The position numbers and the translations under genes are program-made. Shown piece after piece: positions 5,110 to 50,370 of a stretch of 64,000 nucleotides of DNA (position 1 is the first letter of the stretch; each line of letters begins with the position of its first letter). The notes under the pieces were generated by a model that saw only the letters and a program-made list of their open reading frames with translations, was not told the origin of the DNA and ran no database searches. The DNA comes from Actinomycetota bacterium (lineage in GTDB: Bacteria; Actinomycetota; Actinomycetes; Actinomycetales; Microbacteriaceae): NCBI GenBank assembly GCA_020160915.1, contig JAIUPK010000003.1, positions 62,001 to 126,000 on the forward strand. The letters run 5' to 3'.

Positions 5110-5149
5110 GGCTCAAGGGTAGGGCACCCTCGGCGGGTTGCCCGGGAGG

Positions 5150-5710: not shown

Positions 5711-5800
5711 CACAACTGCACGGTACCGCGTGCCCACCCATTCGTGCCAGCGCGCTGGGATATCTCCCGCGCGAGAGTCGCAGCGAGCGCTCGGCTGCGT

Positions 5801-8800: not shown

Positions 8801-9379
8801 GTCGCCCAGGCGGGTGAGGTTGGCCTGCATCGCCTCCAGCTTGCGGATCGTCTTCTCCTTGCGGCGACGATGCTTGAGGATGCCCGCCGCCTCTTCGATG
8901 AACCCGCGGCGGTCCTCGGGGCTCGCGTGGAGCACGGCGTCGAGCTGGCCCTGGCCGACGATCACGTGCATCTCGCGGCCTAGACCGGAGTCGCTCAGCA
9001 GCTCCTGCACGTCGAGCAGGCGGCACTGCTCACCGTTGATGGCGTACTCGCTGCCGCCGTTGCGAAACAGCGTGCGGCTGATCGTGACCTCGGAGTACTC
9101 GATCGGCAGCGCGCCATCCGCGTTGTCGATGGTCAGGATGACCTCCGCGCGACCCAGCGGACCCTTCGTCGCCGTGCCCGCGAAGATGACGTCCTCCATC
9201 TTGCCGCCGCGGAGGGTCTTTGCCCCCTGCTCGCCCATGACCCAGGCGAGGGCATCCACGACATTGGACTTGCCGGACCCGTTGGGCCCGACGACGCAGG
9301 TGACGCCCTGCTCGAACTGGAAGGTCGTCGGCTGTGCGAAGGACTTGAACCCCTTGAGGGTCAGGCTCTTCAGATACAC
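5801..9379 (-). CDS. smc: chromosome segregation protein SMC
   Basis: SMC ATPase that forms the condensin-like complex with ScpA/ScpB. About 1192 residues: N-terminal head with P-loop GPNGSGKSN (about 31-39), long coiled coil, hinge near 500-650, second coiled coil, then C-terminal head with signature LLSGGERSLAAVALL and Walker B YIMDEVEAALDD. GTG at 9379 (YLKSLTLKGFKSFA follows) has GAAGGG five bases upstream and fits the family better than the GTG at 9400. Unusual: about 30 residues (GGLSSDAEAARIETSSTD and on) before the C-terminal head are encoded by an inverted pair of palindromic repeats at 6480-6570, in frame. Confidence 0.96.
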   Translation of the reverse strand: MYLKSLTLKGFKSFAQPTTFQFEQGVTCVVGPNGSGKSNVVDALAWVMGEQGAKTLRGGKMEDVIFAGTATKGPLGRAEVILTIDNADGALPIEYSEVTISRTLFRNGGSEYAINGEQCRLLDVQELLSDSGLGREMHVIVGQGQLDAVLHASPEDRRGFIEEAAGILKHRRRKEKTIRKLEAMQANLTRLGDLAGEIRRQLKPLGQQAEIAKEAASIAAIVRDARARLLADEVVELRAAITDFSRSESERKTERIVLQEQLDQNKLREGRLEQAQVGDAVDVARRVAFGLESAQERLRGLYTLANQRLALLGQQGDGPSIGTTISQAAVQEARDEAERLAAGVAEAEESVGAAAAATATAKASLDSLDEEIAAQSALVSRHELELAGLASRVDVARSTLAAARGELLRQQNALESAEQRRDSTRTEFVALEAEAATSTEGDGTLDTAYEAAEALVASVQAEIEALRDDLHAAERERDALAARSSALSLAVDQKDGSSALVGAKLGGIRGLVAEHVKIEPGFEAAIAAALGSLADAVLADSQGAAFDALAHSAAQDFGRVEVVVADSAAPKQAAAPAGVRAATEVVTAPDGVLGLLAGVYIADDLDAARSAFAKIGDATFVTKQGDVLTRYVLRGGSGAKRSRLELVAERDAAAAKLATVTTQIERTRFALAEKRGALETAKTDAAAALTALREYDAALAAQSEQLGRFRIQLEAAQAEWERLSQGLELTAEKVREAEAAVERAVADHQEYESAPRPMLDVSARDSVLAEVETARAAELEQRIQLETIRERVRAERARAEALAAQLVAEREAAEEQARLTVIRQRQVAAATEVIAALPAVLDSVDRSVSQARVDLTAKEAERSAQNEELATLRREESSLRERLSAISENVHGLEMQIYEKKLHLSTLLERAGEELGLVEDVLVAEYGPQVPIPVEGGLSSDAEAARIETSSTDNEGFDTPPAEATQPAGKPFVRVEQQARLAAAERKLAQLGRVNPLALEEFEALEQRHKFLTEQLTDLTNTRKDLLTIIDEIDEKMQDIFGSAFEDTRAAFNQVFPILFPGGTGSIHLTDPDNMLTTGIEVTVKPAGKKIERLSLLSGGERSLAAVALLIAIFKARPSPFYIMDEVEAALDDANLGRLLTIFEDLRETSQLIVITHQKRTMEIADALYGVSMRADGISAVVGQRVGERSAS
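6480..6570. repeat. family A palindromic repeat pair inside smc
   Basis: Two inverted family A units. Unit one starts GGTTGAGTAG (6480-6489), has mini-hairpin GCCTCC-GCA-GGAGGC and ends GTATCGAAACC (6504-6514). Unit two is inverted: GGTTTCGATAC (6533-6543), a GC-rich centre, GCTACTCAACC (6560-6570). The whole 91 bases stay open in the smc frame. The same flanks recur at 23279, 24825, 30557, 30609 and in part at 57974. Confidence 0.9.
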
Positions 9380-9514
9380 GGCAGCCCTTCGGTCGGTCAC
9401 GCTAGCTGGGACTACGGTACCCGACCCGTCGCAGGTAACGCTTCCGTCTCGATCGCTCGCGCCGGGCGATCGTGAGGCTTAGTCTGGTCGGCTGCCCACT
9501 GAGAGGATGCTGTC

Positions 9515-10576
9515 GTGACCGCCACGATCGAGGAACTGCCGATCCCCGAGTCGATGGACGCGCCCGGAGGCGACGACTTCGCGCGAGCCATCGAGGTCGG
9601 CAACATCGTCGAGGCGATCACCTACGGCACCCCGGATCTCGCCTACGAGCCCGTCGAGGAGTTGCCCTACTACCGCGACCCCTTCCACCCCCAGCGGATG
9701 CTCGTGGCCCGCCTCGACGGCGCAATCGTCGGCACCGCGCGGTACGAGACGCAATCGGAGGAGGACGCCGACACCGCCTGGATCGGCGTGTACGTGCTGC
9801 CCGAGTTCCAGAGCGGGGGAATCGGTCGGGCCCTGGCCGAGGCGGTCGAGGAGCTCTCGCGCGCCGAAGGTCGCACCAAGGTGGTCGTCTACCACGGGGT
9901 GCAGGCCGGCGCCGGTGAACAGCTGGCCTCGCCCACCGGATTCGGATCGGTGCCCGCCGATGACCGCGCGGTGCGCCTGCTGCTGGCCCGGGGCTACCGC
10001 CTCGAGCAGGTCGAACGGGTGAGTCGGCTCGCGCTGCCGGTGGAAGCCCTCGAGGATCGCCTCGTCGCAGCGCGGCGGGCCAGCGGTCCTGACTACGCCC
10101 TGCACTACTGGCACGGACCCACCCCCGAGCGCTGGCGGGCGGATGTCGCCGTGCTCGGCAACCGCATGTCGACCGACGCCCCGAGCGCCGGCCTCGAGGA
10201 ACCCGAGGAGACCTGGACCGAGGAGCGCGTGATCGCCGCCGACGTGCGGGATGCCGCCAGCCCCCGCACCCGCACCGTCGCCGCCGTCGAGCACCTGCCG
10301 TCGGGACACCTCGTCGGATTCACCGTGCTGTCGGTGCCTGAGCAGGCTCATCGATCCGCCGCCCAGTACGCGACGCTCGTGCTGCGTGAACACCGAGGGC
10401 ATCGGCTCGGCATGCTGCTGAAGGTCGCGAACCTCGCACACCTCGAGCGGGTTTCGCCCGGGCATCCGTCGGTCACGACCTTCAACGCGGAGGAGAACCG
10501 GCACGTGCTCAGTGTGAACGAGACCCTGGGCTTCGTGCCGATCGCCTACGAGGGAGCGTGGCGGCGCGATCTCTAG
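9515..10576 (+). CDS. tandem GNAT-domain acetyltransferase
   Basis: 353 residues with two GNAT-like halves. The first has the cofactor motif VLPEFQSGGIGRALAEAVEEL (about 90-110). The second has VLREHRGHRLGMLLKVANLAHL (about 285-306), followed by TFNAEENRHVLSVNETLGF, typical of the fold's last strands. This tandem arrangement resembles mycothiol-synthase-like and related actinobacterial acetyltransferases of unknown acceptor. GTG at 9515 is the start. It diverges from smc and converges on the secreted-protein gene, overlapping it by four bases. Confidence 0.83.
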   Translation: MTATIEELPIPESMDAPGGDDFARAIEVGNIVEAITYGTPDLAYEPVEELPYYRDPFHPQRMLVARLDGAIVGTARYETQSEEDADTAWIGVYVLPEFQSGGIGRALAEAVEELSRAEGRTKVVVYHGVQAGAGEQLASPTGFGSVPADDRAVRLLLARGYRLEQVERVSRLALPVEALEDRLVAARRASGPDYALHYWHGPTPERWRADVAVLGNRMSTDAPSAGLEEPEETWTEERVIAADVRDAASPRTRTVAAVEHLPSGHLVGFTVLSVPEQAHRSAAQYATLVLREHRGHRLGMLLKVANLAHLERVSPGHPSVTTFNAEENRHVLSVNETLGFVPIAYEGAWRRDL

Positions 10577-38253: not shown

Positions 38254-39031
38254 CGGCGGCCGCGCGTCCCGCCGCCAGCCCAGCCGCGCGCCCCGCCTCA
38301 AACCCTTCGGCATACGCCTCGGCGCTGCCCAGCCGGAACATGTCCTCGTTCGCGGGCCGCACGATCGAGCGCGCGCCCGGCTCGTCGAGCCCCGCGACCA
38401 GGTGACTCATTCCGCGGATCACGGCCACCGGCATCCCGAGCGCCTTGCCCTTCACAAGGTCAGCGGCGCCGGCCAGCTCGTCGGCGGTGGCGGCGATCGT
38501 GGCATCCAGTCGCCGGCCGGAAGCGTCGGTCGTGCCCCGCAGGTCATCCATCACCCGGATGCCCGCCGCCCCGATCGCGACATCGGTCTGCCCGGCGCGC
38601 CATGGTCGACCCAGGGTGTCGGTCACCAGCACGCCGATGGACACCCCGAACCGCCCCCGCAGCGCGGTGCACAGCCGGAGGGCCGACGCGTCCGGGTCCT
38701 CGGGCAGCAGCAGCACGACACCGTCGGGGGTGTTGCTCGCGTCGACGCCCGCTGCCGCAAGCACCATGCCGAGGCGGTTCTCGACGATGCGGGTCGTGCC
38801 ACCCGGGTGCACGCGCGTCGCGACGACGCGCACTGTCTCGGCCGTGATCGCGTCCTCGCGGTCGGCGGCCAGCACCTGCCGGCCCTCAACCTTCGACACG
38901 ATCTTCGACGTCACAGCCAGAATGTCACCCTCATCGACCACGCCCTCGAGAGCGTCGCCGAGAATCTGCGCCAGGTCGTCGCCCGCGACGAACTCCGGCA
39001 GGCCGCCGACGCCGAACACCTTGAGCATCAC
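38246..39031 (-). CDS. cofE: coenzyme F420-0:L-glutamate ligase (F420 biosynthesis)
   Basis: 261 residues. [25 protein letters not shown] and [24 protein letters not shown] are CofE motifs for GTP, metal and F420-0 binding. It adds gamma-linked glutamates to F420-0. Only the ligase domain is present; the FMN-reductase domain fused at the C terminus in mycobacterial FbiB is absent, so reduction of dehydro-F420-0, if used, must be encoded elsewhere. The Ala/Gly-rich tail is dispensable-looking. Confidence 0.94.
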
Positions 39032-39040
39032 CGAACCAGC

Positions 39041-39427
39041 TTAGGCGCGCCCCCTGTGCACGGTTCGCTTCTTCACGCTGCCGTCGGGCGCGTAGTAGAC
39101 CCACTCGCCGGTCTTGGTGCCATGGTCGAACTCACCCTCATCGATGAGCACGCCTGAGGCCGTCCAGCGCTGCCAGAAGCCGTGCTTCTCGTCCCCCACG
39201 AACGCACCCTTCTGCAGCAGCCCGCCCGTCGACCGGTACCAGGTGACCGGCCCGCTGAGCTCGCCGGCCACGTACTCGCACTCTGAGCGCACGCGCCCGT
39301 CGGCGAAGTGGTGCACCCAGCGGCCCACGCGCAGCCCCGCCACGTACTCCCCCGCGATGGTGCCGCCGTGGGGGTCTGGCTCCTCCCAGGGGCCGGTGCG
39401 GTTGCCCGCGGCATCCGTCTGGTTCAT
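39041..39427 (-). CDS. MORN-repeat (YwqK-like) protein
   Basis: 128 residues made of about five 20-25 residue MORN-variant repeats with G-x-W/F and Y/F-x-G-x-x-x-G patterns: GLRVGRWVHHFADG, ELSGPVTWYRSTG, EKHGFWQRWTASG, TKTGEWVYYAPDG. Databases often label such proteins YwqK-family antitoxins on thin evidence. Here it lies between an F420-type oxidoreductase gene and cofE with gaps of nine or ten bases, so it is probably cotranscribed; its role there is unknown. Confidence 0.82.
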   Translation of the reverse strand: MNQTDAAGNRTGPWEEPDPHGGTIAGEYVAGLRVGRWVHHFADGRVRSECEYVAGELSGPVTWYRSTGGLLQKGAFVGDEKHGFWQRWTASGVLIDEGEFDHGTKTGEWVYYAPDGSVKKRTVHRGRA

Positions 39428-39437
39428 GGCAGCGACC

Positions 39438-40448
39438 CTAGCGCGTCAGCTTCGGCAGCACATCCCGGCCGAACACCTCAAGCCACTGAGCCTGGTTGCG
39501 CCCGGCGTTGTGCAGGTAGATGCGGTCGAACCCGAGATCGAGGAAGCTCTGGATGTGCGCCCGGTGCGCATCGAGGTCGGCGGTGACGAGCATCCGCCCC
39601 TCGAAGTCATCGGGGCGCACCAGCTTCGCCAACTGGTCGAACTCGAACGGCGAACGGATGTCACTGCGCCCGAACCGCATGCCGCCGTTGGGCCACTCGG
39701 CCAGCGCGTTCGCCATCGCCTCCTCGTCGGTGGGGGCCCAGCTGAGGTGCAGCCGCAGCACGCGCACCTGCGTCTTCGGGTCGCGGCCGGCCTCCTTCGC
39801 GCCCTCGGCGAAGCGCTGCAGCAGCAGGCCGATCTTGTCGAGCGGAGCCACCTCGGTGATCATTCCGTCGACGGTGCGTCCGGCGCGGCGGGCCGTCACC
39901 GGTCCGGATGTCGCGACCAGAATCTCGGGCGCCCTCTCGGGCATCGTCCACAGCCGTGTCGACTCCAGCTTGAAGTACTGGCCGTCGTGGCGCACATCCC
40001 GCTGGGCGAGCCCCGACGCGAACAGCTTCTTGATCACGTCGACGGCCTCGAACATGCGGTCGATGCGTTCGGGCGCCTCAGGCCAGTACTGCCCGGCGAT
40101 GTGCTCGTTGAGCGCCTCACCGCTGCCGATGCCCAGCCAGTGCCGCCCCGGATACAGCGCCGCCAGCGTCGCACTCGCCTGCGCCGTGAGCGCCGGATGC
40201 GACCGGAACGTCGGCGCCGTCACCCCGGTACCCAGGTCTCCCGTGGTCGTCTGCCCCAGCGCACTGAGGATGTTCCACACGAAGCTCGCCTGCCCCTGCT
40301 GCGGCGTCCACGGCTGGAAGTGGTCGGTCGCCATCACGCCCGTGAACCCGTGCTGCTCGGCGAGCGTCGCTAGCTCAACAACCTCCCGCGGCGGAAACCG
40401 CTCGAGCATGGCGGCGTAGCCGATGTGGGGTGCGGATGCTCGGGGCAT
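39438..40448 (-). CDS. LLM-class F420-dependent oxidoreductase (G6PDH-like subgroup)
   Basis: 336 residues, luciferase-like barrel. IGYAAMLERFPPREVVELATLAEQHGF, VMATDHFQPWTPQQGQASFVWNIL, GTGVTAPTFRSHPALTAQASATLAALYPGRHWLGIGSGEALNEHIAG and ATSGPVTARRAGRTVDGMI match the F420-dependent glucose-6-phosphate-dehydrogenase-like subgroup. It heads the cofE-cofC operon, so it may reduce F420 or use it. Substrate unproven. Confidence 0.88.
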   Translation of the reverse strand: MPRASAPHIGYAAMLERFPPREVVELATLAEQHGFTGVMATDHFQPWTPQQGQASFVWNILSALGQTTTGDLGTGVTAPTFRSHPALTAQASATLAALYPGRHWLGIGSGEALNEHIAGQYWPEAPERIDRMFEAVDVIKKLFASGLAQRDVRHDGQYFKLESTRLWTMPERAPEILVATSGPVTARRAGRTVDGMITEVAPLDKIGLLLQRFAEGAKEAGRDPKTQVRVLRLHLSWAPTDEEAMANALAEWPNGGMRFGRSDIRSPFEFDQLAKLVRPDDFEGRMLVTADLDAHRAHIQSFLDLGFDRIYLHNAGRNQAQWLEVFGRDVLPKLTR

Positions 40449-40482
40449 GAGTACATTGTGGCGCGGGTTTCGGGCACTGCCT

Positions 40483-40857
40483 CTACCGCAGCATCGTCTC
40501 CATCGCGACGACGAGCCGCCCGGCGTGCTGGATCGCCTCGGCGGACTTGGCGGATGTCACCATCCGCGGCTCGTACGCCGCGTTGTTCTTCAGCGCAACC
40601 AACGCCTTCAGGTGGTTGGCCGCGGCTTCGCCGCCGTGCGCCCGCCTGATCAGCGCGACCGCGTCGGAATGGTTGGTCGAACTCGACCGCACGCCGAGCG
40701 CTTTGCCGCAGATCGCGTCGGCGGCGGCGATGCCTGCGATCACGGCGTTCGACGCGGCCACGAACGTCGCGGCATCCTCGCCGAGCTCGGCCGCGAAGTG
40801 CACAACATCGAGTACCTGCCGTCTCTCAAGGCGACTAAGCGGTCTAGTCCTATTCAT
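40483..40857 (-). CDS. small helical protein, HEPN-like
   Basis: 124 residues, predicted all helical. AASNAVIAGIAAADAICGKALGVRSSSTNHSDAVALI resembles HEPN domains, and RSSSTNH fits their R-x5-H motif, though this is short and could be chance. High GC like the core chromosome. Its start overlaps the end of the HEPN-like/zinc-ribbon gene by eight bases, so the two are translationally coupled. Possible RNase, antitoxin or structural partner; not known. Confidence 0.65.
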   Translation of the reverse strand: MNRTRPLSRLERRQVLDVVHFAAELGEDAATFVAASNAVIAGIAAADAICGKALGVRSSSTNHSDAVALIRRAHGGEAAANHLKALVALKNNAAYEPRMVTSAKSAEAIQHAGRLVVAMETMLR

Positions 40858-41755
40858 TGTTGTACTCGGAGTCGTACCCTAGATCGTCCACGTCACCCTC
40901 GGTCTCAAAAGTCGACTCCATTCCCGCCTCGCCAAGAAGGCTCAGGTCTTCGAGGACCAGGTGACAACTGGGACACCAAAATACGACGGGCTGCACCTCA
41001 AGCGTCACGAAAACGTTGGGGTATCCGAACCCGTCGTCTTCATACTCAATGCGAGTGTTCTCGAAATCCTCGCCTTCGCGCCACCCCACCTCGCTGCACG
41101 CAGGACATGTTGATTCAGATCGATACCTCAGAGAGGGTCCCGCGAACCTAGTCCACTCCGAGGCCATTGCTGCAGACATCGCCCCTTTGTCGTGCTGAAT
41201 CTTCCGCGTTCTTGCACGCTCAAGCAGTGCGCTCAGTCGAGCCCTCATATGTTGAGCGTTTGTCTCCAAGTGGCGCTCCACAACTGCCAGTCGGCTTGGA
41301 CCCACCAGGTCTTCGATCGACTTGTCCAAGTGGCTGAGTAAGACGGTGGCCTGCGCCCAGTAACGAGGCCACCACGCTGAATCGGGAATCGCTCCGAACC
41401 CGACATCTGCGGCGTGCAGATAGTCATTCCGCCCCGCTGAAATCAGCTTCGCCTCCGCTTCATTGAATGGCTTGAATACCGCAGCGCATCGTGCCCATAC
41501 GGCCTTTGCTGGGACCGACATGAAACCACTCGCATCCGCGGTAGTGCCCGCTGCTATGAGGAGACTTTTCCCGTCGTCAGAAGGCAGGGCAATTAGAAGC
41601 GGGTTGATTCTCGACAACGCCGCCTTGCCCAGCAACTCAAGAGCAGCTGATGCCCAGAACGCTCCCTCCTCGAACTCGCGTCCATCGTCCATTGAACGAT
41701 TGACGAACAAGCGAGCCTTCATCCACAGCCCATCAGAGTCATACGGTACGGTCAT
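40850..41755 (-). CDS. HEPN-like protein with C-terminal zinc ribbon
   Basis: 301 residues, unrecognised as a whole. A helical N-terminal part (1-150) contains GAFWASAALELLGKAALSRI and RNDYLH, which fits the R-x4-H active motif of HEPN ribonucleases. The C-terminal third has two Cys pairs, CPACSEVGW and CPSCH, 40 residues apart, a zinc-ribbon pattern. The tail is acidic. GC is clearly lower than the surroundings. It overlaps the dioxygenase gene (ATGA) and the small helical gene, forming a three-gene operon of foreign appearance. Confidence 0.72.
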   Translation of the reverse strand: MTVPYDSDGLWMKARLFVNRSMDDGREFEEGAFWASAALELLGKAALSRINPLLIALPSDDGKSLLIAAGTTADASGFMSVPAKAVWARCAAVFKPFNEAEAKLISAGRNDYLHAADVGFGAIPDSAWWPRYWAQATVLLSHLDKSIEDLVGPSRLAVVERHLETNAQHMRARLSALLERARTRKIQHDKGAMSAAMASEWTRFAGPSLRYRSESTCPACSEVGWREGEDFENTRIEYEDDGFGYPNVFVTLEVQPVVFWCPSCHLVLEDLSLLGEAGMESTFETEGDVDDLGYDSEYNNE

Positions 41756-42492
41756 TCGCGCTCCTCAACTCCAAACGTCAGGCGCTCGATTCGACGGGTC
41801 TGCCGGTCGACAACCTCATTTCGGGCATGAAGTACCCTTCGATTGTCGAGGATGAGCAGTTGGTTGTCGCGTGTCCATTCGTGAACGAACGCATCAGGCC
41901 GAGCTTCCTCGAAAAACGCAACTGTTTCCCGCGCAAATTGATCGCCGGGGCTCATACAGAAGGGGTCGAAGCGTGTCCTGTTCTGCTCATGTGCCGAAGC
42001 AAGAAATGCGCTTCGGTTACCATGCACGATGAAGATGCCCTGACTGGCGAACTCGGGCAACCAAGGTCTTGATTGCCCCATCCCTGGTGCCCATACGATT
42101 GTTGGCGTGCTCGTCGGCTTGGCGGAGTAGAGCGCCACAATGTCCGGCGGGGTTTCAAGATGCGCGCCATCCGTGTGAAGCGGCTGAGGGCCAAGCCCGA
42201 CATGAGCACTTATGCTCTTCGGCGGCGCCTTGTCTGCCTCGTACGGCTTCAATACAGTCTTTTCGCGACCCTTCTCGGTAGCGGCCCGAAGGCCCTGCAA
42301 CTCCGCGGCTGCCTTCAGCTCGGCCGGTGTACCCAAGGCCACTACCCAACCGTTTGCGCGTAGCTCCTTGCGAATGGCTACCAGATCGAGCAATGGTCCT
42401 CCAAGGTTCTGCCCGAATGCTACGGCAAGGTCGATGGACTGCGCCCAAGCAGAACGGAACAACTTGGCGCTCGCCGTTGAGGCAGAATGCAA
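41752..42492 (-). CDS. TauD-like Fe(II)/2-oxoglutarate dioxygenase, compact
   Basis: 246 residues. The metal triad is visible: H106 and D108 (PLHTDGAHLETPPDIVALYS) and H222 (LLILDNRRVLHARNEV), with an Arg near R234-R237 for 2-oxoglutarate. The N-terminal part is shorter than in TauD (about 280 or more). Substrate unknown. First gene of the lower-GC minus-strand operon and divergent from the FRG gene, 75 bases apart, so it may be regulated with it. Confidence 0.78.
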   Translation of the reverse strand: MHSASTASAKLFRSAWAQSIDLAVAFGQNLGGPLLDLVAIRKELRANGWVVALGTPAELKAAAELQGLRAATEKGREKTVLKPYEADKAPPKSISAHVGLGPQPLHTDGAHLETPPDIVALYSAKPTSTPTIVWAPGMGQSRPWLPEFASQGIFIVHGNRSAFLASAHEQNRTRFDPFCMSPGDQFARETVAFFEEARPDAFVHEWTRDNQLLILDNRRVLHARNEVVDRQTRRIERLTFGVEERE

Positions 42493-42567
42493 TGCCTGTA
42501 TGCGCCAGTTCGGCTGCCTGGGAGCGGGCTCGAGTGCGAAGATGCATCAACGGCGAAGGGAGGCAGT

Positions 42568-43467
42568 ATGCGCGCGGAGAGTTTCTTTGAGCCCTGGGAG
42601 CGGGTAGCAAACGGGTGGGACGAGTGCCTGGGCGAGATAAACAACATCCTGACGATCTCAACGGCACGCCGCGACTTGGCTTGGCGCGGAGTTGCCAACT
42701 CCGCGCACGCCCTTCATAGTTCCCTTTATCGGCGATTCATGTCTGCCAAGAATGTCGCTCCGGATGAAGCCGAGGTCGTGAAGTTCGAGCTTGCACTCTT
42801 GAGTGCGGCCCGCAAGCGCTGGCGCTTTGACAATTTATCCGCGCTTGAGACCTTGGCGCACCTGCAGCACTACGGCGGCCCGACACGACTCCTCGACGTC
42901 TCGTTCAATCCTCTGGTAGCGCTTTGGTTTGCCGTTGAGCAGAAGCACGATGCGGCGGGCGTCGCACGACCTGATACCGATGGTCGACTGATCGTCTTCG
43001 ACGCGACAGATCGGCAAATCGATCTCGATGCCCGATGGGGTGGGCATGAACTCCCATGGACCGCGCAGCCGAATGACAATTGGCGGCGCGGACTCCCCCT
43101 TGTTTGGAGACCGCCGAGCTACAACGACCGGATCCCAGCCCAGAACTCTGCTTTCCTGATTGGCGGCGTTCCGCTCGTTCGGGCCGGCGACAACTCAAAG
43201 TACCGGAAGGCGCCCGGGAATGCTGGCACCGCTGGGTACTGGGCCATCGATGAGGTTAGGCAAGCGACTTCCGTCACCCTCTCGATGAACAGCCTTGAGC
43301 GCCACCCCCAGGCGGGAGCGAAGCCGACCTTCACACTCCGCATTCTGGCGGAGAAGAAGAACGAGGTACGGGCGAAGCTCGAGAATCACTACGGCCTAAA
43401 CGCCGCGTCAATCTATCCAGACCTCTTCGGGCTCGCCCGATATGGTGCAGACCGAATTGCACTGTAG
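42568..43467 (+). CDS. FRG-domain protein
   Basis: 299 residues from ATG 42568, with GAAGGGAGG just upstream. DLAWRGVANSAHALHSSLYRRF and LETLAHLQHYGGPTRLLDVSFNPLVALWFAVE are the two halves of the FRG domain, named for its Phe-Arg-Gly motif. FRG proteins are common in phage-defence and other variable islands, but their biochemical activity is not established. Atypical GC supports transfer. Divergent from the dioxygenase gene. Confidence 0.87.
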   Translation: MRAESFFEPWERVANGWDECLGEINNILTISTARRDLAWRGVANSAHALHSSLYRRFMSAKNVAPDEAEVVKFELALLSAARKRWRFDNLSALETLAHLQHYGGPTRLLDVSFNPLVALWFAVEQKHDAAGVARPDTDGRLIVFDATDRQIDLDARWGGHELPWTAQPNDNWRRGLPLVWRPPSYNDRIPAQNSAFLIGGVPLVRAGDNSKYRKAPGNAGTAGYWAIDEVRQATSVTLSMNSLERHPQAGAKPTFTLRILAEKKNEVRAKLENHYGLNAASIYPDLFGLARYGADRIAL

Positions 43468-43652
43468 GCATCCCGCAACAGTGAGTCCATGCCCTCCTAT
43501 CGGTTGGGTCGCCACTTACAAACAGCAGCCTCTCCGCCCCGCGTCGGGTGCGCCATCTGTTGGAGGACTATGGAGCAGACAGTCGCGGAAGGGGTTGGCT
43601 GGAGGGGGGGGCCCGCAGTGACTCCTGCTTGGACTTTTCGTAAGCTTGCGTC

Positions 43653-44282
43653 ATGTCCGGCAATGAATGGGTGAAACTCTGGGCGACCCCAGAGAGCAGA
43701 GACCACTCGAGAACCTCTTGGGATGAACGCGACGAGAGAACGTCGGTCCGCGTCACCCTTGCAGAAGAGTCGGAGGTTTCGATCGGCGACTACAGCTCCA
43801 ATGTTGAGGATGTGTCTGTTCTTCTCGTCTTCTGCGCCTTTCTCGGCTCGGACGACAACGTGTTCCAGGTACGCGAAACTGACCTTGAGAAGATCAGAGT
43901 GGTGCGTAGTACCTACGGAAGCCCCCTTGACCTCTTGATGACTGTTGGTGGGATTGCAGGTGCAGTGATAATCGGCGCCAACGGTCTGGCAAAAATACTT
44001 AAGACCGTTGCTGAAGCCTTCAAGGCTCATCAAGAAGGAATCGGACAGAGGCAAGTGAACCGCCGCGAGCGCGAGAAGTACGACGAGAAAATACTCGCGT
44101 CAGCCTTCAGGGAGTCCCTTGCTGGGCTTGAGCCACAAGAGCGAAAACAGCTCAGGAAGATCGTGAAGCGCCTGGATGGCAAGGGGCGAGAAGCTCGCTT
44201 GGCCCGTGCACTTGCGAATCTCACCGCCAAGTCGGTGGAAGTCCGCATCGACGACCCGGACGACCGTTCAAAGCGCCGTTGA
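43653..44282 (+). CDS. orphan protein with one membrane segment
   Basis: 209 residues, no domain recognised. A polar N-terminal half (1-90) is followed by a Gly-rich hydrophobic segment (LDLLMTVGGIAGAVIIGANGLAKIL, about 92-116) and a long, strongly charged helical C-terminal part (RREREKYDEKILASAFRESL... KRLDGKGREARLARALANL). Lower GC, in the same island as the FRG gene, 185 bases after it. An effector, anchor or scaffold are all possible. Confidence 0.68.
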   Translation: MSGNEWVKLWATPESRDHSRTSWDERDERTSVRVTLAEESEVSIGDYSSNVEDVSVLLVFCAFLGSDDNVFQVRETDLEKIRVVRSTYGSPLDLLMTVGGIAGAVIIGANGLAKILKTVAEAFKAHQEGIGQRQVNRREREKYDEKILASAFRESLAGLEPQERKQLRKIVKRLDGKGREARLARALANLTAKSVEVRIDDPDDRSKRR

Positions 44283-44322
44283 CAAATAACCGCAACTCTT
44301 CTCCGCGGTATCAGCAGGCCTG

Positions 44323-45855
44323 ATGAGCTGCGATAGCTGGTACGACGAGTACGCTCACCCCGTGGCATCCACCCCACTCACGACCGACGTAGTGATCGTC
44401 GGCGCCGGCCCCACCGGCCTGATGGCCGCGACCGTGCTCGCGCGGCTTGGGGTCGACCACGTCATCATCGACGAGAAGCTCGAGCCGACGACGGAGTCGC
44501 GCGCGGTCGGGGTGCAGGCGCGCACGCTCGAGATCTACGAGCAGCTGGGGATCGTCGACGAGGTGCTCGCCGAGGCGACGAAGGCCGACGCCCTCTCACC
44601 CGGGTACCTGAAGCGGGCGTACGCGAACATTCCGCTGCCCACGCTTGGTGCCGAGACGACCAACTACCCGTACATGTCGATCATTGAGCAGAGCAAGAAT
44701 GAGGCGCTGTTGGTGCGGGCGCATGAGGCGCTGGGTGGGGAGGTGGTGTGGGGGCGGAAGGTTGACGCGGTTGAGAGTGACGGGCGTGGAGTGCTGGTTT
44801 CGACTGGCGCGGTTACTGGAGGTGAGGTCTCGACAGGCTCGACCCGCCTGAAAGCGAAGTACCTCATCGCCGCAGACGGGGCGGGGTCGGCGGTGCGGCG
44901 GATGCGCGGCATCGGCTTCGAGGGAACGACCAGCGCGCACACCTTCTTCGTGGTGGACGCGGCCGACGTGCGGGGCATGCGCGACACCTCCGTGAATATC
45001 CGGCTCGGGCGCGGTGAGATGTTGCTCGCGTTCCCGATGGGGCAGGGGCGCGATGCCCGGCTGATCGGGGTGGTTCCGGGCGAGCATCCGGAGGCCGACT
45101 TGGAGGCGCCCCTGCGCGCGAAGCTCGCCGACACCTACGGCGTCACCTGGGGCGACACCCGCTGGCTGAGCACCTACCGCGTGCACCACCGGGTCGCCGA
45201 GCGGCTGCGCGACGGGCCCGTGTTCCTGGCCGGGGATGCCGCGCACGTGCACTCCCCCGTCGGCGCGCAGGGCATGAACACCGGGCTGCAAGACGCCCAC
45301 AACCTCGCCTGCAAGATCGCCGACGTGCTGCAGGGTCGCGCGGATGACGCGTACCTCGACGCCTACGAGGCCGAGCGCCGGCCGGTTGCCGAGCACGTGA
45401 TCGCGTTCACGGAGCGGGTGTTCGGGCTCGTGACATCCGACCGCCGGGGTGTGCAGACCGCGATCCGGATGCTCGTGCCGATCGTCGCGCCGGTAATGGG
45501 GTTTCTGGCGCCGCGACTGCCCCTCGGACGACGCGTGTTCGGCTACGTGTCGCAGACACGCATCCGCTATCGGATGCCCGGGGCCGACCCGCGCGACAGC
45601 GTCGTCGGTAGGCGGCTGCCGCCCTTCGCGCACAACCACGACGCACTGAGGGATTTCACGTGGCAGGTGCACACCTACGGAGCCGTCGACCGGCGGCTCG
45701 CTGACGCGGTCGGGCTTCCCGTGCACGAGTATCCCGCGCCCGTGCGGGGGCCGTTGCGCGCGGGGTGGATGTACCTCGTCCGCCCTGACGGGTTCGTGGC
45801 GGCGGCCGGGGTCACCGCGGCGCCGCTGGTCGCGGCGCTCCCTCGGCGCAGCTAG
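44323..45855 (+). CDS. FAD-dependent aromatic-ring monooxygenase
   Basis: Up to 510 residues of the PheA/TetX-type flavoprotein group. Dinucleotide-binding VVIVGAGPTGLMAATVLARLG near the N terminus, ADGAGSAVRRMRGI, and the second FAD motif VFLAGDAAHVHSPVGAQGMNTGLQDAHNL. Such enzymes hydroxylate phenols, polyketides or antibiotics using NADPH; the substrate is unknown. GTG 44362 is an alternative start 13 codons on. Residues near 165 (GGEVSTGSTR) are encoded by a family B-like repeat at about 44824-44844. Confidence 0.9.
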   Translation: MSCDSWYDEYAHPVASTPLTTDVVIVGAGPTGLMAATVLARLGVDHVIIDEKLEPTTESRAVGVQARTLEIYEQLGIVDEVLAEATKADALSPGYLKRAYANIPLPTLGAETTNYPYMSIIEQSKNEALLVRAHEALGGEVVWGRKVDAVESDGRGVLVSTGAVTGGEVSTGSTRLKAKYLIAADGAGSAVRRMRGIGFEGTTSAHTFFVVDAADVRGMRDTSVNIRLGRGEMLLAFPMGQGRDARLIGVVPGEHPEADLEAPLRAKLADTYGVTWGDTRWLSTYRVHHRVAERLRDGPVFLAGDAAHVHSPVGAQGMNTGLQDAHNLACKIADVLQGRADDAYLDAYEAERRPVAEHVIAFTERVFGLVTSDRRGVQTAIRMLVPIVAPVMGFLAPRLPLGRRVFGYVSQTRIRYRMPGADPRDSVVGRRLPPFAHNHDALRDFTWQVHTYGAVDRRLADAVGLPVHEYPAPVRGPLRAGWMYLVRPDGFVAAAGVTAAPLVAALPRRS

Positions 45856-46118
45856 TCTGCGCTCTTGCCTGGTTTCGGCCCGAACTTGCGGTGTGCCGCC
45901 TGTTTCGAGGTGTTGAGGACCATGGCGATTGAACCCCACGAGAGGCCAGCCTCTTTGGCTGCCGCAACGGCGGCCTCGAGTTGAGCTTCCGCTGCCTCGA
46001 TAGCACCGAGCGCCTGCCCGATTGCGCGGAGCGGACCGGCGTCGTGCACGAGGATCGTGCCGGGGTCGAGCTGGTCTAGCCAAGCCTCGACGTCGGACTC
46101 AGTGCGTGTCTTCGCCAT
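45852..46118 (-). CDS. small HTH-like protein, possible antitoxin
   Basis: 88 residues. An N-terminal acidic helix region and an alanine-rich helix (AIGAIEAAEAQLEAAVAAAKEAG) lead into a helix-turn-helix-like end LSWGSIAMVLNTSKQAAHRKFG. It starts two bases after the upstream small gene ends, with its ribosome site AGGAGG inside that gene's last codons. Order and size suggest a toxin-antitoxin pair or a small regulator pair. The end overlaps the monooxygenase stop on the other strand. Confidence 0.68.
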   Translation of the reverse strand: MAKTRTESDVEAWLDQLDPGTILVHDAGPLRAIGQALGAIEAAEAQLEAAVAAAKEAGLSWGSIAMVLNTSKQAAHRKFGPKPGKSAD

Positions 46119-46120
46119 TC

Positions 46121-46366
46121 CTACCTCCTAACGGTCAACAAATGAAAGAACTTGGGACGAAGGCGATCGGCGTGGATCACCAATACGGGGTCCGACGCAG
46201 GAACGCCGACAATCTCGAGCAGCACCCCACTCATGTCAGGCCCGATGGTGAGGCGCCGATCCTCGCCGTCGAATTCGACCTCAAGGGCAACCATGGCGTT
46301 TCGCAGGGCGTGGAGAATATCCGCCTGCGAGACACCGTGTCTGCTGGCGCTCGCTGCGAAGTCCAT
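46121..46366 (-). CDS. small toxin-like protein
   Basis: 81 residues: MDFAASASRHGVSQADILHALRNAM, then a beta-rich half RRLTIGPDMSGVLLEIVGV and DPVLVIHADRLRPKFFHLL. The pattern (SARRHGI... IGP... LLEIV... IIHAMPLRPKF) recurs in small proteins adjacent to HTH antitoxins and is BrnT/RelE-like in layout. Tightly coupled to the following HTH-like gene. Toxicity is inferred. Confidence 0.65.
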   Translation of the reverse strand: MDFAASASRHGVSQADILHALRNAMVALEVEFDGEDRRLTIGPDMSGVLLEIVGVPASDPVLVIHADRLRPKFFHLLTVRR

Positions 46367-46484
46367 CGCGTCAACATACTGATGACGCTACGCCCGCACG
46401 TTCGTGATGGCAAGGCCGGTGGAATCGCGAGGTGCGACCGTCGTGTTGGGGAGCAGCGGCGCTCCCCGGCGTACGCTCTAACCC

Positions 46485-46715
46485 ATGTCTGACGTGCTGC
46501 TCGCGGTGATCGTCGTGCTGGGTGCCGCCGCTGTGATGGCCGGGCTCGCGGTTCTCGCGGTGCGGGTGCGCCGCCGCGGCACGGCCGGCCCCGCGATCGG
46601 CGCGGCGATGGCAGCCTACGACGAGGCGATGCACTCGACGGCGCACGACCAGTTCGTGGAGATGCAGGCGGAGGCCGACCGGGTAAAGCCCGCGCCGACG
46701 CCCGACAAGCGCTGA
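46485..46715 (+). CDS. small single-pass membrane protein
   Basis: 76 residues: MSDVLLAVIVVLGAAAVMAGLAVLAVRVRRRG is a membrane helix with a basic stop, followed by a soluble tail AYDEAMHSTAHDQFVEMQAEADR. Similar short proteins are found in many actinobacteria without a known role. A 7-bp hairpin (GGGGAGC/GCTCCCC, 46448-46467) lies upstream. Confidence 0.7.
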   Translation: MSDVLLAVIVVLGAAAVMAGLAVLAVRVRRRGTAGPAIGAAMAAYDEAMHSTAHDQFVEMQAEADRVKPAPTPDKR

Positions 46716-46757
46716 GTCGGCACGGCGTCCGCCCGGCCAGCCGCGACTCAGTCGCTA

Positions 46758-46849
46758 TTGATGTCAGCTTTTCTTGACATCAAGTCGTCAATGCTTTACA
46801 TTTCTGGATGTCAAACAAACTATACAGATTGGTAAGAATTCATGACATC
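46758..46849 (+). promoter_or_regulatory. promoter with four TGACATC/GATGTCA half-sites
   Basis: TTGACA (46774-46779) and TACATT (46797-46802) are spaced 17 bases, a good sigma-70-type promoter. The -35 box is inside a perfect inverted repeat TTGATGTCA (46758-46766) / TGACATCAA (46775-46783). Further half-sites GATGTCA (46807-46813) and TGACATC (46843-46849, over the start codon) follow. A repressor bound across this region would block the DUF4386 gene. Confidence 0.75.
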
Positions 46850-47531
46850 CTCAGCCTCCACCCCCGTGGCCACTGCCTCATACAAGACGGGCATCCGCCA
46901 CGCCAGCCTCGTCGCCGGAATCGCACTCGCCCTCATGGCCGTGCTCGCCGGGGTCGCCAACTTCGCCGTCATCACACCGCTGGTCACTCCGGGCGACGCC
47001 TCAGCCACCGCGACCGCCATCGCCGCATCCGAGCCTCTGTTCCGCGGTGCCATCGCGATGCTCGTAGTCGTCGTACTCCTCGACCTCATCGTCGCCGCCG
47101 CGCTTCGCACCGTCTTCGCCTCGGTCAACGCCGCCCTCTCCTCGGCGGCCGGCTGGTTCCGCGTCGCCTACTCGGCGGTGTTCCTCGTGGCGATCGCGCA
47201 GCTGGCCATCGCGGTCACGCAACTCGACACTCCCGACGCGGCCCTCGCATCCATCACGGCTTTCACGACCATCTGGCATGTCTCGCTGATCATCTTCGCC
47301 GGACACCTGCTGCTGGTGGGCTACCTGGCATTCCGCTCAGGATTCGTGCCTCGCGTGTTCGGCATCCTTCTGCTGATCGCCGGCGCCGGATACCTCGTCG
47401 ACGGCTTCATGGCGGTGCTCGTCGCGCAGCCGCCGTTCACGCTCGCCGCCGTCACCTTCGTCGGCGAAGTCGCGCTGATCTTCTGGCTGCTCATCGCAGG
47501 CGGACGCGGTCGCTCGGCGGCCATTGCCTGA
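46842..47531 (+). CDS. DUF4386-like integral membrane protein
   Basis: 229 residues, six or seven membrane helices: for example HASLVAGIALALMAVLAGVANFAVI, AIAMLVVVVLLDLIVAAAL and VFGILLLIAGAGYLVDGFMAVL. The pattern LVGYLAFRSGFVPRVFGILLLIAGAGYLVD is characteristic of DUF4386. The role is unknown; members are often next to MarR/PadR-type regulators. Its AT-rich promoter and repeated half-sites show tight regulation, though no regulator gene is adjacent. Confidence 0.85.
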   Translation: MTSSASTPVATASYKTGIRHASLVAGIALALMAVLAGVANFAVITPLVTPGDASATATAIAASEPLFRGAIAMLVVVVLLDLIVAAALRTVFASVNAALSSAAGWFRVAYSAVFLVAIAQLAIAVTQLDTPDAALASITAFTTIWHVSLIIFAGHLLLVGYLAFRSGFVPRVFGILLLIAGAGYLVDGFMAVLVAQPPFTLAAVTFVGEVALIFWLLIAGGRGRSAAIA

Positions 47532-47534
47532 TCG

Positions 47535-48080
47535 CTAGCGCCGCACGTACCTCGAGTACACCACCCCACTGCCGGCGAACGAGCGCGACTCCACGAGCCG
47601 CAGGTCGACGCGCACACCGGTCGGCATGAACGGGATGCCGCCACCCACGCTCACTGGGAACACCAGCGTGTAGAACTCGTCCACCAGGCCGAGCCGCAGC
47701 GCTGCCGACGCGAGGGTGGGTCCGCCGATCGACACCCGTCCGGGCAGGGCGCGCACCAGGTCGACGTCGAAGGCGGGCTCGATGCGGGTGCGTGCGGTGG
47801 ACACCGACGCGAGAGTAGTCGAGAAGACGATCTTGTCGGCCGCGCGCCACAGGCGGGCGAAGTCATCCATCACCGGTTCGTCGGGATCGGACGGCATCGT
47901 GTCCCAAGCGGACATGACCTCGTACATGCGGCGGCCGTAGAGGTAGGTGCCGGTGTCGCGCTCGAGGTCGTTGACGAAGGCGTGCACCTCGGCGTCGGGC
48001 GCGGCCCAGTCGAAGTTGCCGCCCGCGTCGCCGGTGTAGCCGTCGAGCGACATGAGCGCGCCGTAGATCAGGGTGCCCAT
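47535..48080 (-). CDS. dihydrofolate-reductase-fold (RibD C-terminal) protein
   Basis: 181 residues. LIYGALMSLDGYTGD at the start, TYLYGRRMYEVMSAW, and VSIGGPTLASAALRLGLVDEFYTLVFPVSVGGGIPFM are the RibD C-terminal/DHFR-like segments that bind NADPH. These stand-alone proteins act as reductases of unknown substrate and are frequent in actinobacteria. Its start overlaps the stop of the upstream gene (TGATG), so the two are coupled. Confidence 0.88.
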   Translation of the reverse strand: MGTLIYGALMSLDGYTGDAGGNFDWAAPDAEVHAFVNDLERDTGTYLYGRRMYEVMSAWDTMPSDPDEPVMDDFARLWRAADKIVFSTTLASVSTARTRIEPAFDVDLVRALPGRVSIGGPTLASAALRLGLVDEFYTLVFPVSVGGGIPFMPTGVRVDLRLVESRSFAGSGVVYSRYVRR

Positions 48081-48436
48081 CAGCTGTCCACCACTCCCAC
48101 GAACCGCGAGCCGACGCCGTCGAACTCCTCGCGGTACAGGCCGGCGGCCGGGTCCGGCAGGTCGAGCGGCGAGTGGTCAGCACAGCTCAGGTACGTGAAC
48201 GCCGGCCACCACTTCTTGGGCCGCGCGCGCTCGGTCGCGCCGCACACGTCGCAGCGCAGCTCCACCCAGACGGGCTTGGCGCCCGTGCGGTTCGCGCGGG
48301 ACTGCGCCAGCCAGGGCGGGGGGTTCGTGTCGAGGGCGGCGAGCTCCTGCTCGGTCATGCGGGTCGGGATGCCGTGCCGCGTCGCCATCTCGAGCGGAAT
48401 GTCGAGGCGCTGGGCGGCTTCGCGGCGGGAGATCAC
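48080..48436 (-). CDS. conserved actinobacterial protein of unknown function
   Basis: About 118 residues from GTG 48436 (VISRREAAQRLDIPLEMA); an ATG ten codons upstream is possible. The N-terminal part resembles a helix-turn-helix (REAAQRLDIPLEMATRHGIPTRM). VWVELRCDVCGATERARPKKWWPAFTYLSCADH contains Cys and His residues that could bind a metal. No named domain recalled. Cotranslated with the RibD-like gene. Confidence 0.72.
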   Translation of the reverse strand: MISRREAAQRLDIPLEMATRHGIPTRMTEQELAALDTNPPPWLAQSRANRTGAKPVWVELRCDVCGATERARPKKWWPAFTYLSCADHSPLDLPDPAAGLYREEFDGVGSRFVGVVDS

Positions 48437-48486
48437 AGTTCCATTGTGGTGGGTGCGCAGCAGCATCCCGTGTGTACGCTGTCAAC

Positions 48487-48888
48487 ATGACCACCACCTG
48501 GCCCGGACCCATCTCCGCCATCACGATCTTCGTCGACGACCTGCCCGCCGCGCTCGAGTTCTACGACCGCGCCTTCGGCCTGCCGCGGCACTGGGAGGAC
48601 GAGTCGTCGGCGGTCTACAACTTCGGCAACACGTTGATCAATGTGCTCGTGTCATCCCAGGCCCCCGAACTGATCGAGCCGCGCCCGGTGGCGCCCGAGT
48701 CCGCTGGGTCGCGGGTGCAGTTCACGCTGAGTGTCGATGACGTGGATGCCACGGCCGCCGGCCTCGCAGCCCGAAACGTTGCGCTACTCAACGGGCCCGT
48801 GGACCGGCCGTGGGGAATCCGCACAGCCGCATTCGCCGACCCCGCCGGACACGTCTGGGAGATCGCCGGGCCGATCGCGGGCGCGTAG
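48487..48888 (+). CDS. VOC-family (glyoxalase/bleomycin-resistance fold) protein
   Basis: 133 residues from ATG 48487. ISAITIFVDDLPAALEFYDRAFGLP starts the first beta-alpha-beta-beta-beta unit; VDDVDATAAGLAARNVALLNGPVDRPWGIRTAAFADPAGHVWEIAG is the second, ending in the usual Glu metal ligand. Members include glyoxalases, dioxygenases and drug-binding proteins; which one this is cannot be told. Confidence 0.88.
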   Translation: MTTTWPGPISAITIFVDDLPAALEFYDRAFGLPRHWEDESSAVYNFGNTLINVLVSSQAPELIEPRPVAPESAGSRVQFTLSVDDVDATAAGLAARNVALLNGPVDRPWGIRTAAFADPAGHVWEIAGPIAGA

Positions 48889-48938
48889 CCTGAGCCGCCG
48901 GGGCGCCGGGGCCGCTGCGCGTCGGCCGGCTGAAGCGG

Positions 48939-50147
48939 CTAGCCGACCAACTGCCCGTGCAGCTGCTGCTGCACTTGCAGCGCAAGACGGCGAAGAAGAA
49001 CCTCGTCGATCTGGCTCGCGCGGCGCGGTTCCTGGTCGAACACGCACAAGGCTCCGATGGGCTCACCGCCGGGCGCCTCGATGGGGAACCCCGCATAGAA
49101 CCTGATGTGCGGATCGCCCACCACGTAGGGGTTGTCGGCGAAGCGGGCGTCGGTCGTGGCATCCGGAACGATCAGAGCACCGCGCCCCTGAATGGTGAAA
49201 TTGCAGAACGTGCTGGCGCGATCGAGCGTGTCGTAGTCGAGGCCGACATGCACGACGTGGCGCGACGTGTCCCCGTCGAGCACGCTCAGCACTGCGCCGC
49301 TCGTGCCGAACAGCTCGCGGGCCAGGTCGACGATGCGTCGCACCTGATCGTCGACGACCACCTCGAAACTGTCCACGGCGAGCTGGCGCTGCTCCTCGTT
49401 GATGTAGCCGACCGACCGCACAGACACGCGGGCCGGATGACGCCGCGCCCACGTCACCGCGGGCGCCATGATCTCGGCGATCACGTCGGCCGCCACCCGG
49501 TAGTCCTCACCGGCGGGCACGTCGCGCTGCCGCGGAATCACCGGCTCATTGAGCGACACGAACTGCGCCCGCGGACGCTCTGCGCACAGCTCGGAGGAGA
49601 CGCGGTCGAGCTTGGCCGCGTGGCGCTGCGCGATCAGACCCATCGGACCAAGCCGCGCCGGCATCGAATGCATGGGTGGCACACCGAGCACGATGACCGC
49701 GGTGCCGGGGGTGGTGTGCACGGTGAGATGGTCGAGCAGCTGGCCGATGCTGCGGCGCCATCCGCTGAGGGAGGCCAGGTCGAGCGCCTCGTAGAGGCCC
49801 ACGGCAACGACGATCGCCTCGTAGCGCCAGAGGGGCATGGCCGCGAGGCGGTCGAGGGCGGATGCCGCAGTCATCCCCGCGCGGGTCACGATGTCGACGT
49901 CCACGCCGCGGTCGGTGCAGTTGGCGAGGGCTCGGGCGAGCATGCCCCCGAGCGAGAGGTCGTAGCTGAACACGCCGAACCCGACGGCCGCGCCGGAGCC
50001 GATCAGCAGCACCCGATCGGCGTCGCTTCCCTCGGCATGTACCTGGGGAACGCCGCGCGGACGCGGGAGCAGCGCCGTGTTCTCCCTGGCCCCCGCGACC
50101 CACCCGCGCATGGCCGGAAGAAGTGCTGCGTCTAGCGGATTTCTCAC
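48939..50147 (-). CDS. SGNH-hydrolase-like domain fused to a GAF domain
   Basis: 402 residues from GTG 50147 (GGGGGAAAG just upstream). The first half has VLLIGSGAAVGFGVFSYDLSLGGMLARAL (block I with Gly-Ser), IVVAVGLYEALDL and VIVLGVPPMHSMP (blocks II-III style), an SGNH/GDSL esterase fold, although the usual GDS is GSG here. The second half (about 240-402) is a GAF domain: FGTSGAVLSVLDGDTSRHVVHVG, FCNFTIQGRGALIVPDATTDARFADNPYVVG, FYAGFPIEAPGGEPIGALCVFD. The fusion suggests an esterase-like module linked to a small-molecule or redox sensor. Confidence 0.82.
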   Translation of the reverse strand: MRNPLDAALLPAMRGWVAGARENTALLPRPRGVPQVHAEGSDADRVLLIGSGAAVGFGVFSYDLSLGGMLARALANCTDRGVDVDIVTRAGMTAASALDRLAAMPLWRYEAIVVAVGLYEALDLASLSGWRRSIGQLLDHLTVHTTPGTAVIVLGVPPMHSMPARLGPMGLIAQRHAAKLDRVSSELCAERPRAQFVSLNEPVIPRQRDVPAGEDYRVAADVIAEIMAPAVTWARRHPARVSVRSVGYINEEQRQLAVDSFEVVVDDQVRRIVDLARELFGTSGAVLSVLDGDTSRHVVHVGLDYDTLDRASTFCNFTIQGRGALIVPDATTDARFADNPYVVGDPHIRFYAGFPIEAPGGEPIGALCVFDQEPRRASQIDEVLLRRLALQVQQQLHGQLVG

Positions 50148-50289
50148 GTTCTTTCCCCCTGCGCAACAGCCTAGGTGTGGGCTGTGAATCCGCTGCGCCC
50201 CCCTTAGGGTTACGGAGTTGGCGGAATGGGGTACAAGAAGGCGGGCGGCGTGTTCGGTGCTGGGCTCGAGGGGCTGGCTGACTGCGCTG

Positions 50290-50370
50290 GCTCCTCTCCG
50301 GCCGCTCCTCTCCGCGGCTCCTCTCCGCCCGCTCCTCTCCGCGCTCCACTCCGGCCGCTCCTCTCCGCGC
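50290..50370. repeat. six-copy tandem repeat, 12-14 base period
   Basis: GCTCCTCTCCG occurs six times (starts 50290, 50304, 50317, 50331, 50343 with one change, 50357), separated by 1-3 G/C bases. It lies in the 290-base gap between the SGNH-GAF gene and the HNH gene, which holds no other ORF I can support. The minus strand is purine rich. Confidence 0.9.

Follow-up and report, generated by a model that had tools for sequence, protein, structure and literature searches.

Pairing of a TauD-like dioxygenase gene with a candidate HEPN ribonuclease gene in bacterial genomes and plasmids

HEPN ribonucleases are core effectors of bacterial immunity. Two-gene conflict systems built around them are known, and their known enzyme partners are, to our knowledge, nucleotidyltransferases and ATPases; we know of none in which the partner is a dioxygenase, nor of any case in bacteria in which immunity is controlled by dioxygenase hydroxylation. 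The described systems closest to the one treated here are the MNT/HEPN pair (MntA-HepT), in which the HepT motif includes HxY; the HEPN family DUF4145 (PF13643); and the CBS-HEPN system DS-11 of DefensePredictor. Excerpts of the source on DUF4145 report zinc-ribbon fusions and operons with restriction-modification genes (PMC3710099), and those on DS-11 present a HEPN nuclease whose presumed control lies with a second part that senses a ligand (PMC13092281). Here we analyse a stretch of 64,000 nucleotides (the window) from a Microbacteriaceae genome of 2.93 Mb (assembly GCA_020160915.1, contig JAIUPK010000003.1, positions 62,001 to 126,000), in which a gene for a TauD-like Fe(II)/2-oxoglutarate dioxygenase overlaps a gene for a 301-residue HEPN-like protein with a zinc ribbon. 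The pair looks like an undescribed bacterial defence or toxin-control module.

A preliminary description, made by a model from the letters of the window, had grouped five open reading frames (ORFs) in 40483-44282 as one island, had noted a lower G+C content in 40850-44282 and had read the three minus-strand genes as a single unit. All five ORFs are present where it placed them (Table 1); its gene overlaps of 4 bases (41752-41755) and 8 bases (40850-40857) are borne out; and the G+C content of 40850-44282 is indeed low, 0.587 versus 0.683 for the window, the next-lowest stretch of 3.4 kb having 0.647 when the window is scanned in 200-base steps. The proposed three-gene unit stands for the dioxygenase and the 301-residue gene and fails for the 124-residue gene. 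A gene-neighbourhood search of genomes and plasmids, which had been suggested as a check, shows the pair to be conserved far outside the source strain.

Table 1. Features of the locus, in window coordinates
Feature	Coordinates	Strand	Remarks
TauD-like Fe(II)/2-oxoglutarate dioxygenase, first gene of the pair	41752..42393	-	PF02668; likely start 42393, frame open up to TTG 42492
301-residue candidate HEPN-like RNase with C-terminal zinc ribbon, second gene of the pair	40850..41755	-	Conserved motif and cysteines
Intergenic stretch between the divergent dioxygenase and FRG genes	42394..42567	.	Between the likely TTG start and the FRG gene
Orphan HEPN-like half of an MNT nucleotidyltransferase/HEPN pair, outside the dioxygenase-HEPN pair	40483..40857	-	124 residues
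FRG-domain protein, accessory cargo, outside the pair	42568..43467	+	PF08867; PADLOC PDC-S15
209-residue near-orphan with one hydrophobic stretch, outside the pair	43653..44282	+	No Pfam match

The 301-residue protein has matches (E ≤ 0.001) in 9 of 398 genomes of the family, the window's own included. Ten loci came from this family search, again counting its own, and a dioxygenase gene adjoins the HEPN gene in seven; the other three hold distant relatives with 28-30% identity. A scan of named actinobacterial genomes yielded 26 loci, from Streptomyces, Nocardia, Amycolatopsis, Blastococcus, Nocardioides, Micromonospora and other genera (five of the 26 come from genomes also in the family search). 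A dioxygenase gene is adjacent in 24 of these (L064, with a disrupted dioxygenase frame, and L072, with a truncated HEPN gene, included), or in 25 if we count Gordonia sihwensis, where the HEPN gene is split across two contigs and the dioxygenase lies on the second; in the 26th locus, from Nostocoides jenkinsii, the HEPN gene is incomplete and nothing matches the dioxygenase. The HEPN protein also matches 26 plasmid records, and all 14 that were opened, near relatives among them (L076 and L081, L074 and L079), have a dioxygenase match directly upstream. The plasmid hosts are Streptomyces, Bradyrhizobium, Sinorhizobium, Agrobacterium, Shinella, Paracoccus, Ketogulonicigenium, Pseudomonas, Acinetobacter and one uncultured organism. 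The reverse test gives the same picture: the 15 plasmid records with a dioxygenase match all hold the HEPN gene too, and a dioxygenase profile (E ≤ 1e-15) found two matches in 396 genomes of the phylum, the window's own and one (G464) that looks like the Nocardia carnea locus L063, with the same coordinates, both beside a HEPN gene. No dioxygenase of this kind lacking a HEPN gene was found among these 15 records and two genome matches.

The two genes share exactly 4 bases in the window (ATGA) and in 22 of the 24 named loci, counts that rest on the start codons chosen. The distance matrices of the two proteins are correlated (r = 0.88 for 34 pairs and 0.83 for the 23 actinobacterial pairs), with none of 2000 permutations reaching either value, although this co-divergence may come partly from host phylogeny. 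In two loci, L072 and L086, the HEPN gene is broken beside an open dioxygenase frame. The first of these, from Herbiconiux gentiana (9986-10273), has a HEPN gene that ends after about 93 residues and, shortly downstream on the same contig, a frame that by eye is integrase-like; integration may have cut the module there.

In the 301-residue protein, E40, N110 and H114 are kept in all 43 aligned relatives and R109 in 42, and the four zinc cysteines C217, C220, C261 and C264, arranged as a CPxC...CxxC ribbon, are kept in all 43 (the incomplete copies of L070, L071, L072 and L086 were excluded from the alignment). The E...RNxxxH motif, with a preceding helix-like E..(G/A)KA stretch, is what we take to be the HEPN signature, and at motif level the protein appears to conform to the R-polar-x3-5-H pattern of HEPN domains. 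The earlier call of HEPN plus zinc ribbon finds support in the invariant motif and cysteines and in HEPN profile matches that are weak and individually insignificant. No Pfam HEPN model matched the window protein. Among 24 relatives, PF05168 matched four (best E 0.036) and DUF4559 four (best E 0.00085), neither matching the window protein; within the best 25 of the 58 Pfam families matched, zinc-ribbon models occurred in up to nine of the relatives and not in the window protein, and PF13643 was absent. A profile search of the PDB with the HEPN alignment was uninformative (best E 0.36). The invariant motif leads us to consider it likely that the protein is HEPN; the profiles alone would be insufficient.

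Six distant HEPN-zinc ribbon proteins (L178, L179, L180, L182, L183 and L184) keep RN(A/G)xxH and the cysteines. No dioxygenase match was found in the stretches around them, no shared partner was seen by eye, and the two that were scanned had no Pfam match at E ≤ 0.1. The existence of such stand-alone relatives suggests that the HEPN protein is the effector and that the dioxygenase is a dedicated regulator added in one branch. A further candidate, L181, was rejected by eye as another kind of zinc protein.

The dioxygenase was correctly recognised as TauD-like (PF02668, E 2.8e-11, 44.3 bits versus a Pfam cut-off of 27). With residues counted from TTG 42492, H106, H222, R233 and R237 are invariant in 36 aligned dioxygenases, of which 32 have D and 4 have E at position 108 (L064 and L074, whose copies are disrupted or short, were excluded). 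Besides matching the TauD/TfdA profile, the protein has, to judge from these residues, the predicted 2-His-1-carboxylate triad and 2-oxoglutarate-binding arginine of the family. R233 and R237 follow H222 at 11 and 15 residues, presumably the spacing found in Escherichia coli TauD, in which these arginines bind 2-oxoglutarate and the anionic substrate. The closest solved relatives of the window's dioxygenase in the PDB are clavaminate synthase and carbapenem synthase (E about 1.5e-6). Translation probably starts at TTG 42393, since homologues begin about there and GGAGG precedes this codon; with that start, about 174 bases separate the dioxygenase and FRG genes, where 75 had first been given.

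The link to defence proposed for the locus holds for the pair, many of whose loci adjoin known defence genes. We compared the surroundings of 18 pair loci (17 of the 26 named ones and that of G110, most with long contigs) with 18 control stretches from the same genomes: the 142 neighbour proteins matched 228 PADLOC models and the 141 control proteins 18 (E ≤ 1e-8; three of 144 control proteins had been dropped for size); because the models are redundant, these counts overstate the enrichment and show its direction only. Neighbour proteins were taken from a simple ORF caller that failed to call the dioxygenase in 5 of the 18 loci (L050, L058, L060, L069 and L070), and some of them may be spurious frames. 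When ten large neighbours were scanned singly, four matched: LmuA and LmuB (Lamassu), a GmrSD-type IV restriction protein and a PDC-M37B-type protein. An endonuclease-helicase pair was read among the ORFs of the G110 locus, GajA models match two of the 142 neighbours, and one plasmid locus has an ATP-dependent endonuclease and UvrD pair that is Gabija-like by gene order. Plasmid annotations near the pair include AbiV with AbiH, SIR2 with AbiE, and ABC three-component (ABC-3C) genes, and TrlF ATPases are present in 4 of the 14 opened plasmid loci. Of the Pfam families matched by the neighbours, phage integrase occurs most often (in 4 of 142; Pfam was run on neighbours only).

A string of TrlF ATPase, dioxygenase, HEPN protein and GIY-YIG nuclease genes recurs on the alphaproteobacterial plasmids L076, L081 and L083 (about 4319-9463), whose dioxygenases have HxE in place of HxD. 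TrlF also follows the pair on the Pseudomonas plasmid L075.

We propose, with confidence evenly balanced between belief and doubt, that the pair is a mobile two-gene conflict module in which an RNase effector is under the control of a dedicated dioxygenase; its role would probably be anti-phage defence or abortive infection. In this proposal, the 301-residue protein would be the effector, a HEPN endoribonuclease with E40 and R109-N110-x3-H114 as its motif, and its zinc ribbon would probably bind RNA or a partner. The dioxygenase would set RNase activity through an oxidative modification, its target being either the HEPN protein or the RNA or nucleotide that this protein binds; infection would change the modification state and so lead to the cutting of RNA. 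Restraint and activation by the dioxygenase seem to have similar probabilities: the order of the genes and their translational coupling point to restraint, whereas the stand-alone HEPN relatives and the loci with a broken partner favour activation or fine control. The more specific idea that hydroxylation by an Fe(II)/2-oxoglutarate dioxygenase is what gates the HEPN ribonuclease, in an immune or toxin-control system, we put forward only tentatively. If true, it would couple RNA destruction either to oxygen, iron and 2-oxoglutarate together or to a phage-altered substrate. The literature searched, which took in few subscription papers and no bioRxiv preprints, held no description of the dioxygenase-HEPN pair or of oxidative gating.

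Several observations weigh against the proposal of a controlled conflict module. Besides the share that host phylogeny may have in the co-divergence and the redundancy of the PADLOC models, neither protein of the pair matches any PADLOC model at E ≤ 1, in a run that the preliminary description had asked for; six of the ten large neighbours scanned singly have no PADLOC match, and several plasmid loci have no obvious defence neighbour. No relative of the HEPN protein was found in viral contigs or phage records, a search made with that protein and not with the dioxygenase. At L064 and L074 the HEPN frame is open beside a dioxygenase frame that is disrupted (L064) or short. Profile comparisons by hhalign with the widest alignment reached E 0.036 with PF05168 relatives and 0.052 with DUF4145, at about 1% probability, and with a narrower alignment 0.23 and 0.18; non-HEPN controls gave 0.33 and 0.8, and the HEPN-like family of the 124-residue protein 0.25. 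In the widest alignment the first helices are in register with those of the PF05168 relatives, and RNxxxH falls on the (G)N...H of DUF4145.

We weighed three other explanations. The pair could be a toxin-antitoxin system proper, in which a HEPN RNase toxin is countered by the dioxygenase, through binding or hydroxylation, and which serves mainly to maintain plasmids or islands. The dioxygenase gene has the upstream, antitoxin-like position with its 4-base overlap, many copies are on plasmids, and VapBC or BrnTA is nearby in 4 of the 14 opened loci; however, the open HEPN frames of L064 and L074, unless due to sequencing errors, argue against a strictly essential antitoxin and mildly against the explanation as a whole, as does the existence of stand-alone HEPN-zinc ribbon relatives, and we judge it unlikely. 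That the HEPN frame is tolerated in those two loci without an intact dioxygenase would instead suit an activating sensor, which is a sharper form of our own proposal: the dioxygenase would oxidise phage or host nucleic acid or a metabolite, and the HEPN-zinc ribbon protein would read the product and cut RNA or tRNA. Such a sensor is also consistent with catalytic residues kept throughout the aligned dioxygenases, with a zinc ribbon kept throughout the aligned HEPN proteins and with neighbours, in two loci, whose targets are modified or methylated nucleic acids. Against it, R233 and R237 have a spacing closer to that of TauD, an enzyme with a small, anionic substrate, than to that of a nucleic-acid dioxygenase, and we see only a small chance that this sharper form is correct.

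That clavaminate and carbapenem synthases are the best solved relatives of the dioxygenase raises the third explanation, a metabolic or natural-product pair merely carried in islands, whose second protein would be a helical, zinc-binding chaperone or subunit devoid of RNase activity. It would also accommodate the insignificant HEPN profile support and the metabolic genes that stand upstream in a Streptomyces plasmid locus. The pair is associated with defence and mobile genes, however, its RNxxxH is invariant, and no conserved metabolic neighbour was seen in the loci read (by reading, without clustering); we regard this explanation as very improbable.

Within the genus of the source strain, the locus lies at a variable site. 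A luciferase-like gene at 39438-40448 has a strong match (E < 1e-100) in 21 of 26 other genomes of the genus; the match breaks off at about 40427-40466 in 20 of these 21, and in the four genus loci compared further shared sequence restarts near 48.1, 50.4 or 52.0 kb. This ending, with sequence resuming far to the right, marks 40466-50350 of the window as a variable stretch between genus-shared flanks, with contents that differ among the genus-mates compared; by reading of ORFs, it adjoins F420-biosynthesis-like genes. Genus-mate G411 has 39068-39389 and 44347-45855 in common with the window, and the intervening DNA is not shared. The 301-residue gene was present in none of the nine other genus members drawn in the family search. 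Promoter and terminator scans of 40300-44500 gave hits at chance level only, a sigma-70 scan of the intergenic stretch between the divergent genes found no promoter-like site, and an RNA element at the locus was rejected, Rfam having no match in 39000-46000.

The three remaining genes do not travel with the pair. The 124-residue, FRG and 209-residue proteins were unmatched in the other family loci and in the 26 named pair loci (matches were sought in genome loci, not in plasmid loci), and the single five-gene island of the preliminary description was rejected. The 124-residue gene has a host-like G+C content of 0.672 and, since it is also unmatched in the named loci, its 8-base overlap is no proof of a common unit. 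Its family is found in 18 of 169 family genomes, self included, and a conserved gene family lies directly upstream in all 15 relatives examined (window excluded; one in L045); the three upstream proteins scanned all contain the nucleotidyltransferase domain PF01909 (E 2e-8 to 1.4e-11), which identifies the 124-residue family as the HEPN half of an MNT/HEPN pair. The earlier reading as a small HEPN-like protein therefore survives by family, while its casting as partner of the 301-residue protein is rejected. Most family members have K(N/T)xxxY in the motif region, not R...H, so that the family looks catalytically dead. None of the window's six frames matches the profile of the nucleotidyltransferase partner; a missing nucleotidyltransferase, with the dioxygenase-HEPN pair in its place, would explain both the 8-base overlap and the G+C step at 40850. 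Two relatives of the 124-residue gene lie near DUF4145 matches, one (G000:C1:8227-8553) about 2.5 kb from a match in a 1128-residue frame and the other, in G079, at 1.4 kb.

The FRG call is confirmed by Pfam (E 2e-17); the protein also matches a PADLOC candidate family (E 2.4e-28) and has relatives in 3 of 168 other family genomes. According to excerpts of one source, FRG belongs to the ADP-ribosyltransferase superfamily and might serve as an antiviral NADase (PMC9503650). The 209-residue protein, earlier called a membrane orphan, owes the first word to a single hydrophobic stretch seen by eye and nearly deserves the second, having weak relatives (25% identity) in 2 of 168 other family genomes. 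Both genes are local cargo.

A HEPN-dedicated dioxygenase found in at least two phyla and on many plasmids would add an oxidative switch to the control of self-harming nucleases, and the pair is a two-gene target small enough for direct testing. Its first protein resembles TauD/TfdA enzymes and the clavaminate and carbapenem synthases in its HxD/E...H...R layout as well as in profile; it differs from them in being short (about 205-230 residues in most relatives) and in that the searches made found it nowhere but next to the HEPN gene, at loci that are mobile and rich in defence genes. The second protein carries the R(G)N...H signature of DUF4145, although the window protein does not match PF13643 at a threshold as loose as E 10 and the profile alignment is not significant. 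DS-11 is described as a HEPN nuclease with a second part that presumably controls it, but is a single protein with CBS domains; the words dioxygenase, oxygenase and TauD are absent from the main text of that paper, supplements aside (PMC13092281). The MNT/HEPN systems are also two-gene operons, overlapping or adjacent, of a HEPN protein and an enzyme that possibly modifies it, and in the relatives of the 124-residue gene examined here the enzyme gene is upstream. The pair described here departs from them in having a dioxygenase as partner in place of a nucleotidyltransferase, and a larger HEPN protein that has a zinc ribbon and RNxxxH without the HxY of HepT.

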